In this document: piece after piece, positions 7,898 through 52,781 of the stretch
Layout: the number at the start of each line of letters is the position of its first letter
How positions within the stretch are numbered: position 1 is the first letter of the stretch
NCBI RefSeq assembly: GCF_032116555.1
Contig: NZ_CP134949.1
Location: 558,001-622,000 of the forward strand
Length of the DNA: 64,000 bases
Source: Halobaculum sp. XH14
Lineage (GTDB): Archaea > Halobacteriota > Halobacteria > Halobacteriales > Haloferacaceae
Direction of reading: 5' to 3'
The notes under the pieces: model-generated
Told to the model about the DNA's origin: nothing
The model's database searches: none
What the model saw: the letters and a program-made list of their open reading frames with translations, nothing else
Translations under genes and position numbers: made by a program

Positions 7898-8580
7898 GCT
7901 CGAAAGCCCCCGCGGCTCTCGACTCGGTGCGGCCGCTGCGCTCCTCGCTCCCTTCGGTCGCGCTGTCGTTCGAAAATCGAAGATTTCGTGATGACGAGAG
8001 AGCTCCGCTCTCTCGAACCACGGTGCTTGTCGGTCCGCGCCGTTCACGAGAGCAAAGCTCTCGTGAGCTCACGAGACGCCGTGCGTCTCGTGAACGTCGT
8101 CGAGAGCCACGGCCCCTTTCAGTCCCACCCGCCGCAACCGCCCCGCATCCACGGCCTCTCCAGCCGACGAGGTCCCGACCGGAGGGAGGGACCTCGTCCC
8201 TCGCGCGCGTCTGCTCGCCTTCCGGGCTCGCCGTCACGCGCGCCACGGCGTTGACCGACCGAGCCACGTGGCGCGCGGCGGCCGCGCTCCGCGCGGCCGC
8301 TCGTGCGAGGCTCACGCGAGCGCAGCGAGGGTGAGTTTCGAGGAGCTCGCTCCGAGAAAAGACGAGCACCGCAGGCGAACGAGCGAAGCAGTGAGCCGAG
8401 GAGCACAGGAGGCTGGGGAGGGTGAGGTTCGGGGCGGTGGTGTGGGTGGGACTGAAAGGGGCCACGGCGCTCGGCGAACCCCGAGGCCTCAAGCACCGCA
8501 GGAGGGAGGCCGCAGGCCGACCGACGAGGAGCGCAGAGCGTCTCGCGGGAGCCGAGCGCCGTGGGGGGGCTTTCGAGGCG
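7898..8580. repeat. Dispersed modular repeat, copy B: head-to-head pair of copies
   Basis: This fills most of the 933 bp between the divergent pgi and the 8733 membrane protein gene. The left copy (7898-8244, plus) has outer module, GC-rich segment, hairpins, CCCCTTTCAGTCCCACC core and a type-1 tail ending GTCACGCGCGCC. The right copy is inverted (about 8252-8580) and ends GGGGGGGCTTTCGAGG, with core GGTGGGACTGAAAGGGG and a type-2 tail. Hairpins: CGAGAGAGC/GCTCTCTCG around TCC (7995-8015), TCACGAGAGC/GCTCTCGTGA around AAA (8044-8066), TCACGAGACGC/GCGTCTCGTGA around CGT (8069-8093), GCGGCCGCGC/GCGCGGCCGC around TCC (8278-8300). A degenerate solo end lies further on at 8622-8638. Confidence 0.85.
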
Positions 8581-21125: not shown

Positions 21126-21618
21126 CCTCGAAAGCCCCCGCGGCTGTCGGCTCGGGGGACCACGCCTGCGCTCCTCGCGCTCGCTTCGCTCGCGCTGTCG
21201 TTCGAAAATCGAAGATTTTCGTGATGCTGTCGGATTCCGACGGAATCCGACCGCTGACGGGGAACCGTCGGTTTCCCGTACTGACGAAAGACGCCCTGGC
21301 GTCTTTCGAACCACGAGGGTGCGTTCCGAGGAGCTCGCTCCGAGGTAAGACGAGCATCGCAGGCCAGCGAGCGGAGCGACCGAGGCGAGAAGCACAGGAG
21401 GCTGGGGAGGGAGAGGTGCGGTGCGGTGCCGTGCGGTGGGTGGGACTGAAAGGGGCCGCGGCGTTCACGGGCGCTTGCGCCCGTGAATTCGGGAGAGCGT
21501 GCTCTCCCGTAAGTCGACGCGGGCGCGGACCGACAAGCACCGCAGCCGAACGAGCGAAGCGAGTGAGGCGAGGAGCACAGCGGCCGCACCGAGTCGAGCG
21601 CCGCGGGGGCTTTCGAGG
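21126..21618. mobile_element. Dispersed modular repeat, copy D: complete unit with perfect inverted ends
   Basis: 493 bp bounded by CCTCGAAAGCCCCCGCGGC (21126-21144) and its exact reverse complement (21600-21618). There is no coding capacity I trust. Reading from the right end: GC-rich segment, two hairpins (GGGAGAGC/GCTCTCCC and ACGGGCGC/GCGCCCGT), core CCCCTTTCAGTCCCACC, then a type-2 tail with GAAAGACGCC/GGCGTCTTTC (21286-21307), TCGGATTCC/GGAATCCGA around GAC (21230-21250) and CGAAAATC/GATTTTCG around GAA (21203-21221). No clear target-site duplication flanks it. The shape resembles a non-autonomous miniature inverted-repeat element. The rest of the 20661-21682 gap holds only the tentative small frame at 20844. 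Confidence 0.7.
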
Positions 21619-41604: not shown

Positions 41605-41833
41605 CCTCCCCAGCCGATTCGCTCGCTGTCGGCGCGCCACAGGGGCGCGCCGGCTCGCTCACCCCTCGCGCGCGTCGACTCACCCCACGAAGGGGGTTTG
41701 CGTCGCGCGCGCCACCCGCCAGCACGCGTCGACCACTCACCTGCTGCCAACTCACCCGCCGGCTGACCGGGCGACCGTCACGGCCGACCAACCGATGGGT
41801 GGGACTGAAACGAGCCGCGGGGGCTTTCGCGGT
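41605..41833. repeat. Dispersed modular repeat, copy E (rearranged)
   Basis: In the 534 bp between the aldo/keto reductase and ribH. CCTCCCCAGCCGATTCGCTC (41605-41624) leads into a hairpin (GGCGCGCC/GGCGCGCC, 41631-41652) and a type-1 tail with GCGCGCGT and GGGGG(TTTG)CGTCGCGCGCGCC. The inverted core and outer module follow at 41797-41833 (GGGTGGGACTGAAACGAGCC, then GGGGGCTTTCGCGG). So the modules are present but in another order than in copies B and D. The rest of the gap holds no gene. Confidence 0.65.
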
Positions 41834-44509: not shown

Positions 44510-44912
44510 CCTCGAAAGCCCCCGTGGCGCTGGACTCGGTGCGGCCGCTGCGCTCCTCAGTCGCTCGCTTCGCTCGCTCCCTGCGGTGCTTGACGGTCCG
44601 CGCCGTTCACGAGAGCAAAGCTCTCGTGAGCTCACGAGACGCCGTGCGTCTCGTGAACGTCGTCCAGCGCCGCGGCCCCTTTCAGTCCCACCCACCGCAC
44701 CCGCACCGCAGCCACGGCCTCCCCAGCCGACGAGGCCCCTCCCTCCGGTCGGGACCTCGCCTTACCTCGGAGCACGCTCCTCGGAACTCACCCTCGTGGT
44801 TCGAAAGACGCCAGGGCGTCTTTCGTCATCACGAAAATCTCCGATTTTCGAACGACTGCGCTCGCGTGAGCCTCGCACGAGCGGCCGCGCTCCGCGCGGC
44901 CGCCGCGCGCCA
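44510..44912 (+). repeat. Dispersed modular repeat, copy F, between nthB and nthA
   Basis: This nearly fills the 636 bp between the two nitrile hydratase subunit genes. Order: outer module CCTCGAAAGCCCCCGTGGC, GC-rich segment, hairpins TCACGAGAGC/GCTCTCGTGA around AAA (44607-44629) and TCACGAGACGC/GCGTCTCGTGA around CGT (44632-44656), core CCCCTTTCAGTCCCACCC, and a type-2 tail. Tail hairpins: GAAAGACGCC/GGCGTCTTTC (44803-44824), GAAAATC/GATTTTC around TCC (44833-44849), GCGGCCGCGC/GCGCGGCCGC around TCC (44881-44903). The hairpin segment is identical over about 60 nt to copy B, 36 kb away. A degenerate extra end (CGCCTCGCCAGACCCCGTGG) stands at 44451. Confidence 0.85.
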
Positions 44913-52578: not shown

Positions 52579-52781
52579 GTCTCGAAAGCCTCCGCGGCGA
52601 CCGCTCCAGGAGCTAGTTCGGCCGTCGTGACGCACTCCTCGAAAGCCCCCGCGGCCCCGCTCAGTCCCACCCGACGCACCGCATCCGCACCACGGCCTCC
52701 CCAGCCGACGAGGACCCTCCCTCCGGTCGGGACCTCGTCCCTCGCGCGCGGCTGCTCGCTTCGCTCGCCGTCACGCGCGCC
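52579..52781 (+). repeat. Dispersed modular repeat, copy H with two tandem outer modules
   Basis: In the 331 bp upstream of the macrodomain gene. A first end TCTCGAAAGCCTCCGCGGC (52580-52598) is followed 39 bp later by a second, CCTCGAAAGCCCCCGCGGC (52637-52655). Then come the core remnant CTCAGTCCCACCC, CACGGCCTCCCCAGCC, and a type-1 tail ending GTCACGCGCGCC. The hairpin segment is missing. GTTCGGCCGTCGTGAC before the second end also precedes the end of copy F in similar form (GTTCGGTTGTCGTGAC). Confidence 0.75.

Follow-up and report, generated by a model that had tools for sequence, protein, structure and literature searches.

The 493-bp unit and related copies in the window

The window analyzed here, a 64-kb stretch of DNA from Halobaculum sp. 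XH14, contains a protein-free unit of 493 bp after sucD (window positions 21126 to 21618). A preliminary description, in which this unit is copy D, reported perfect 19-bp inverted ends (CCTCGAAAGCCCCCGCGGC at 21126-21144, matched by its exact reverse complement at 21600-21618), one further symmetric base outside them (A21125/T21619), and the absence of both a protein and a target-site duplication. All of these observations were confirmed, and no direct repeat flanks the unit (GTACGGCTA | ... | TGTTCGCGT). In a repeat search, the symmetry of the ends reaches 31 nt at 90% identity. The 19-bp end has 8 matches in the window at up to 3 mismatches, versus 0.18 expected, and genome-wide, at up to 2 mismatches, it is found at 118 places divided about equally between the strands (60 + 58), with none for the reversed control. 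In a comparison of at least 30 copies, CCTCGAAAGCCCCCGCGGC emerged as the outer end of an element, with GCCGCGGCCCCTTTCAGTCCCACCC as its opposite end. At each 19-bp end of the unit a separate element begins, palindromic in its interior, and the right-hand element has another conserved end, GGTGGGACTGAAAGGGG, at 21439-21455; both features were overlooked in the preliminary description.

The 493-bp unit is an inverted doublet of one repeat, with an intact right copy and a truncated left copy. The 19-bp symmetry arises because two like ends face outward, rather than from one transposon, which matches an alternative that the preliminary description had raised, namely, ends contributed by two oppositely oriented copies. 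Its reading of the 19 bp as the terminal repeats of a single miniature transposon was not supported, since the repeat also occurs singly, with nonidentical ends. What survives of the comparison with miniature inverted-repeat transposable elements (MITEs) is that the unit is protein-free and repeated, lacks a target-site duplication, and recurs in pairs; what lacks support is a single transposon with 19-bp terminal inverted repeats and a parent transposase.

The left copy (21126-21197, minus strand, delimited by comparison with the consensus) comprises the outer end, which is the left 19-bp end (21126-21144, plus strand) and consists of GAAAGCCCCC and the base of the variable stem, followed by a single arm of the stem and the core strand CTGCGCTCCTCG (21166-21177). 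It lacks the second stem arm and the GTCCCACC end, and its folded strand is the window minus strand. Four palindromic hairpin modules occupy 21198-21310 (21198-21226, 21229-21251, 21257-21280, and 21284-21310); similar modules are also nested in other copies and in other genera. The region from 21311 to 21437 (plus strand) is a 5′ extension of the right copy that contains GAGGCTGGGGAGGG and is common to other copies in the genome. The right copy (21438-21618, plus strand) is intact except for inserted modules and folds on its G-rich strand, the plus strand of the window; it is matched by a covariance model (CM) of the repeat at 21487-21617 with 51.5 bits. Its conserved inner end, also recovered by genome scan, lies on the plus strand (complement core, CCCTTTCAGTCCCACC). 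In the alignment, GAAAG at 21448-21452 (plus strand) is the 5′ arm of the basal stem, P0, and pairs with CTTTC at 21610-21614. Two palindromic modules (21464-21487 and 21488-21512, together 21464-21512) lie inside the 5′ arm of the variable stem, and the arm sequence on either side of them has kept its match to the 3′ arm at 21593-21606. The conserved upper part (21534-21580, plus strand) contains CAAGCACCGCAG at 21534-21545, an apical GCGAAGC with a GAA triloop at about 21554-21560, and CGAGGAGCACAG at 21569-21580. The outer end of this copy is the right 19-bp end (21600-21618, minus strand).

Elsewhere in the window, end matches and the CM identify a second inverted pair of about 680 bp (7898-8577; copies at 7898-8130 and 8444-8577), which holds several nested palindromic modules, and a short form with a degenerate left end 57 bp outward (52581-52672, minus strand). 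The CM also detects a single copy at 44511-44693 (minus strand, 67.7 bits) and a short form without the hairpin at 41797-41831 (plus strand). The two element ends either join directly, giving a short form of 33 to 35 bp, or have a hairpin of about 90 nt between them, which lengthens where palindromic modules are nested inside it. Exact loss of the hairpin yields the short form.

Hairpin structure and covariation

The G-rich strand of the repeat can fold into a hairpin of about 125 nt; on this strand, base-form elements of 112 to 146 bp from several genera align well. From the base, the consensus consists of GAAAG/CTTTC, a GGG/GGG internal loop, a variable stem of 12 to 14 bp, and a GAA/A loop; above these, short G-C steps alternate with purine-rich loops (GCA/GA, GA/GA, and A/A) up to the apical triloop. 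The sequence of the variable stem differs from copy to copy while pairing is kept. Covariation is very strong, with 365 double-change cells versus 88.9 expected; such counts are inflated and do not represent independent events, the copies being related to one another. In a first set of 36 sequences, 95.6% of cells are paired, and 18 of 29 pairs show double changes. The covariation score for this set is 0.403 versus 0.114 when shuffled, and covariation is lost when the partner is slid by 1 to 3 columns. A second set, of 59 distinct matches spanning many genera, scores 0.575 versus 0.146 when shuffled, in an alignment that was fitted to the model and hence leans towards it. Although its neighbors vary, one position of the variable stem is T:A throughout the first set of 36 sequences.

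Two features indicate that a single strand is the folded one: G.T wobble exceeds A.C wobble in the variable stem, and GNA triloops occur without TNC. Read on the G-rich strand, the variable stem has 25 G.T and 4 A.C wobble pairs (binomial P = 1e-4); the corresponding numbers in the first set are 15 and 2 (binomial P = 0.002). On these counts, the C-rich strand was rejected as the folded one. They supersede a whole-arm count (GT 74, AC 52, on the C-rich strand) in which fixed loop positions were mixed in. Apical triloops are GNA in 75 of 97 cases and TNC in none, and four-base apical loops are rare (4/119). Mini-hairpins of the form C(GNA)G, such as GCGAAGC, are exceptionally stable as DNA. Extraordinarily stable mini-hairpins are known as a general concept for both DNA and RNA (PMC10527192). 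The tolerance of G.U and the fold fit RNA as well as single-stranded DNA (ssDNA), and folding energies alone do not decide between the two. The folded strand of most copies also carries four conserved G-tracts (GGG T GGG ... GGGG ... GGGGG), exemplified by window positions 21437-21455 and 21605-21609, which might allow a G-quadruplex to surround the hairpin.

Distribution and genomic context

The 16-mer of the inner end occurs in 87 of 194 haloarchaeal genomes and 40 of 65 genera, with none in the control. A calibrated covariance model, R1, detects the repeat in 117 of 145 haloarchaeal genomes, representing 49 of 58 genera; many of these genomes contain at least 24 copies. In a phylum-wide draw of 120 genomes, matches were found in 16, all inside the haloarchaeal order; 19 of the genomes listed are members of this order, and none of the approximately 101 others, 84 of which are not listed individually, gave a match. 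Related genomes differ in copy number, from none to at least 29. The repeat is also present in records of haloarchaeal plasmids, those of Halobaculum being among the closest. An exact scan of contigs with the 19-mer returned only 12 loci, mostly chance matches in bacteria, because the stem part of the 19-mer varies. Scanning of the unit and ten other loci against Rfam gave no family at the gathering score, and three matches within the unit at E values of 2 to 5 were dismissed as chance. A literature search for a class-wide haloarchaeal repeat returned only the Haloquadratum elements and papers on palindrome-associated elements of the kind termed PATEs.

Genes were placed with a purpose-made codon-usage gene caller. 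The copies placed in this genome are all intergenic, and so are 60 of the 61 placed in other genomes. With the folded strand as reference, neighboring genes are divergent in 19 cases, codirectional in 17, opposite in 15, and convergent in 9, resembling the background of gaps in the window (12 divergent, 18 tandem, and 6 convergent). A cis-regulatory or terminator role was rejected on the basis of this lack of orientation bias. Where a gene starts 3′ of a copy, the start tends to be about 90 to 115 bp away.

Paired ends of the kind noted in the preliminary description recur: 15 pairs in this genome lie within 1 kb and face outward, counted after removal of one doubly listed locus, versus 2 of the opposite kind. 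The arrangement extends beyond this genome, with 12 of 13 pairs facing outward in a set sampled mostly from other genera, in which two of the pairs (L178 and L205) represent one locus in two related species; the spacer is 21 to 28 bp in 11 of these 12. Same-sense neighbors within 1 kb in this genome are spaced by 56 to 57 bp in 12 of 15 cases. Degenerate copies of the outer end are seen 56 to 57 bp outward at window positions 52580-52655, at G000:C1:437405, 443506, and 828747, and at many more places, and they also lie 51 or 57 bp outward in a second genus, that of genome G046. The copies in genome G147 (L071-L099) have GTGTTCAGATAAG inverted ends, with a short form of about 121 bp and a form of 200 to 210 bp that includes the hairpin; these could represent a MITE that captured the hairpin.

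The preliminary description proposed looking for strains that lack the unit after sucD. This site holds nothing in 25 other genera. Both sister species retain the element or part of it: G001 has a full element and an inverted short form, and G002 keeps about 45 bp, a remnant that includes both ends. The stems of this genome (G000) and G001 at the site are wholly different, and both are still paired. In the genus of G046, a convergent gene pair holds the element in one orientation in most species and inverted in two, and three species have only 35 to 54 bp between the genes. The unit in that genus has different ends, which are putative termini, with hairpins at both. Presence, absence, and inversion at this locus form the best comparative evidence pointing to mobility, and the inversion within the genus could reflect local recombination. 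The variable locus (L233-L262) adjoins a gene that appears by eye to be ScpA-like.

Interpretation and related elements

We think it fairly probable that the unit is an inverted doublet of a nonautonomous mobile hairpin repeat found across haloarchaea. Both the mobility of the repeat and its action as ssDNA are inferred, the former from comparative differences between genomes. Turnover of the stem with pairing kept suggests that the repeat is mobile and that an enzyme moves it in trans. The G-rich hairpin may be recognized as ssDNA, by analogy with the ends of IS200/IS605 elements, REP elements, and attC sites; we infer this because the fold is strand specific yet independent of transcription. 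In such a mechanism, an enzyme supplied in trans would recognize the hairpin as ssDNA, cut near its foot, and move or reinsert the element without a target duplication. Single copies, the 33- to 35-bp short forms, and the degenerate ends 57 bp outward would be products of decay or reinsertion, and the palindromic modules would be later insertions into stems.

Regarding the enzyme, the parent transposase that the preliminary description anticipated between such ends was absent from the one long interval read, in which paired ends 3.3 kb apart enclose ordinary genes, including sulfatase and GtrA genes, and this candidate for an autonomous parent was rejected. The IS200/IS605 transposase TnpA (PF01797; Y1_Tnp/RAYT) is absent from G000, G001, and G002, all three genomes of the genus, which contain 1, 0, and 1 TnpB genes, respectively. 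At 10 TnpA loci, no CM match was better than an E value of 0.3. The hairpin was present at 1 of 29 TnpB loci, about the chance level, given that the genome concerned has at least 44 copies. IS200/IS605 was rejected as the parent on these grounds, and mobility may have ceased in this genus. We raise tentatively, as a possibility that we do not favor, that this is a class-wide family of hairpins recognized by structure, with a stem constrained only in pairing, that would be moved as ssDNA by a type of enzyme to which no element has so far been assigned, neither an IS200/IS605-type TnpA nor a DDE transposase.

The repeat might instead be a structured RNA family, the G-rich strand being transcribed and the hairpin serving as a noncoding RNA or part of an untranslated region. 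The strong covariation, the tolerance of G.U on one strand, the better folding in an RNA model of the G-rich strand than of its complement in all tested cases, and the reported expression of a PATE in a halovirus-host system (PMC10544981) are consistent with this. We nevertheless regard it as unlikely, given that orientation is unbiased relative to neighboring genes, that outward hairpins with a spacer of 21 to 28 bp leave little room for a promoter, that the apical loops are C(GNA)G triloops rather than GNRA or UUCG, and that an Rfam match is absent. It is quite unlikely that the repeat is a classical MITE, on which a DDE transposase acts through terminal inverted repeats and the hairpin is cargo: the G147 copies are bounded by GTGTTCAGATAAG ... 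CTTATCTGAACAC, and in other genomes doublets lie between short outer repeats, GAACAGCCRGAAAGCCCC among them, but the hairpin is conserved while the outer flanks differ between lineages, the target duplication is missing at 21126-21618, and the single long interval read between such ends lacks a transposase.

Near-perfect stems with free sequence turnover, and the frequency of nested palindromes, would also be produced if template-switch mutation or gene conversion, not selection, kept the stems perfect. Neither wobble asymmetry between the strands, nor the near-invariant T:A in the variable stem (36/36), nor conserved loops with GNA caps would follow from such a neutral quasi-palindrome, which we consider very unlikely. 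Least credible is a site for chromosome architecture or putative protein binding, akin to roles proposed for bacterial REP/BIME sequences; this accords with strictly intergenic location, many copies, independence of orientation, and four G-tracts that would allow a G-quadruplex, and it is opposed by the range from none to at least 29 copies between related genomes and by presence that varies between sister species.

Returning to the reading as a nonautonomous mobile hairpin, the repeat is closest to the small mobile repeats (SMRs) and PATEs of Haloquadratum, which it resembles in behavior, and is REPIN-like in layout; the likeness to SMRs is drawn from published descriptions. Dyall-Smith and colleagues reported SMRs in Haloquadratum, without target duplication and with enigmatic mobilization, as well as PATEs, which have a relation to IS605-type ends and show core deletions and, at fixed positions, switches of orientation (PMC3119063). 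SMR-A of Haloquadratum walsbyi is about 110 bp long with inverted arms, is present in up to 54 copies, and inserts into palindromes of other elements; SMR copies are nearly identical (>95%) and have inverted terminal repeats (PMC3119063). The present repeat is likewise short and transposase-free, with inverted arms and no target duplication at the unit. It differs from SMRs, as known by description, in a stem that varies by copy and in a class-wide hairpin with conserved noncanonical motifs. PATEs are noncoding and sequence heterogeneous, with near-terminal palindromes, core deletions, and no target duplication, and they are insertion targets of other repeats (PMC3119063, PMC10544981). The present repeat shares with them its noncoding, palindromic, and heterogeneous nature, the missing target duplication at the unit, the loss of core sequence in some copies, and its use as a target by other repeats; unlike their IS605-type palindromes, its hairpin is absent from the tested TnpA loci and at chance level at TnpB loci.

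REPINs are high-copy extragenic hairpins, often arranged as inverted doublets with a short spacer. The present repeat is an inverted doublet of extragenic hairpins of this type and resembles REP/BIME sequences in copy number and in its frequent short-spacer doublets. Its hairpin of about 125 nt contrasts with the 20 to 40 nt of REP, REPIN, and BIME hairpins, and, unlike for REPINs, a Y1/RAYT gene is missing from the three genomes of the genus. ERIC sequences of enterobacteria are intergenic imperfect palindromes of about 127 bp with many copies and a conserved sequence. The present repeat is similarly intergenic, palindromic, multicopy, and close in length, but its stem is conserved in structure only, and the lineages are unrelated. 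Integron attC sites combine variable sequence with a conserved fold and strand-specific recognition, and the present repeat shares the variable sequence and the conserved folded structure and may share the strand-specific recognition.

How small haloarchaeal repeats move has been called enigmatic (PMC3119063), and a hairpin that can be aligned across the class, together with a calibrated model, provides a handle on this question. The model allows copies to be counted, dated, and tracked and co-occurring genes to be sought, and the G-rich family lets ssDNA binding be tested. A further benefit is a large natural collection of covarying hairpins that have G-A ladders and GNA caps and come from organisms living at very high potassium.

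Two further observations concern the nested palindromic modules. At L110, L136, L020, and window position 8000, the loop of module hairpins is found in both orientations (GAGAGCTCCGCTCTC and GAGAGCGGAGCTCTC), as though the hairpins flip. In genome G021 (L072-L100), long copies are built of many nested palindromic modules, and these share junction words, among them TCGTGATGACG and CGAACCACG.
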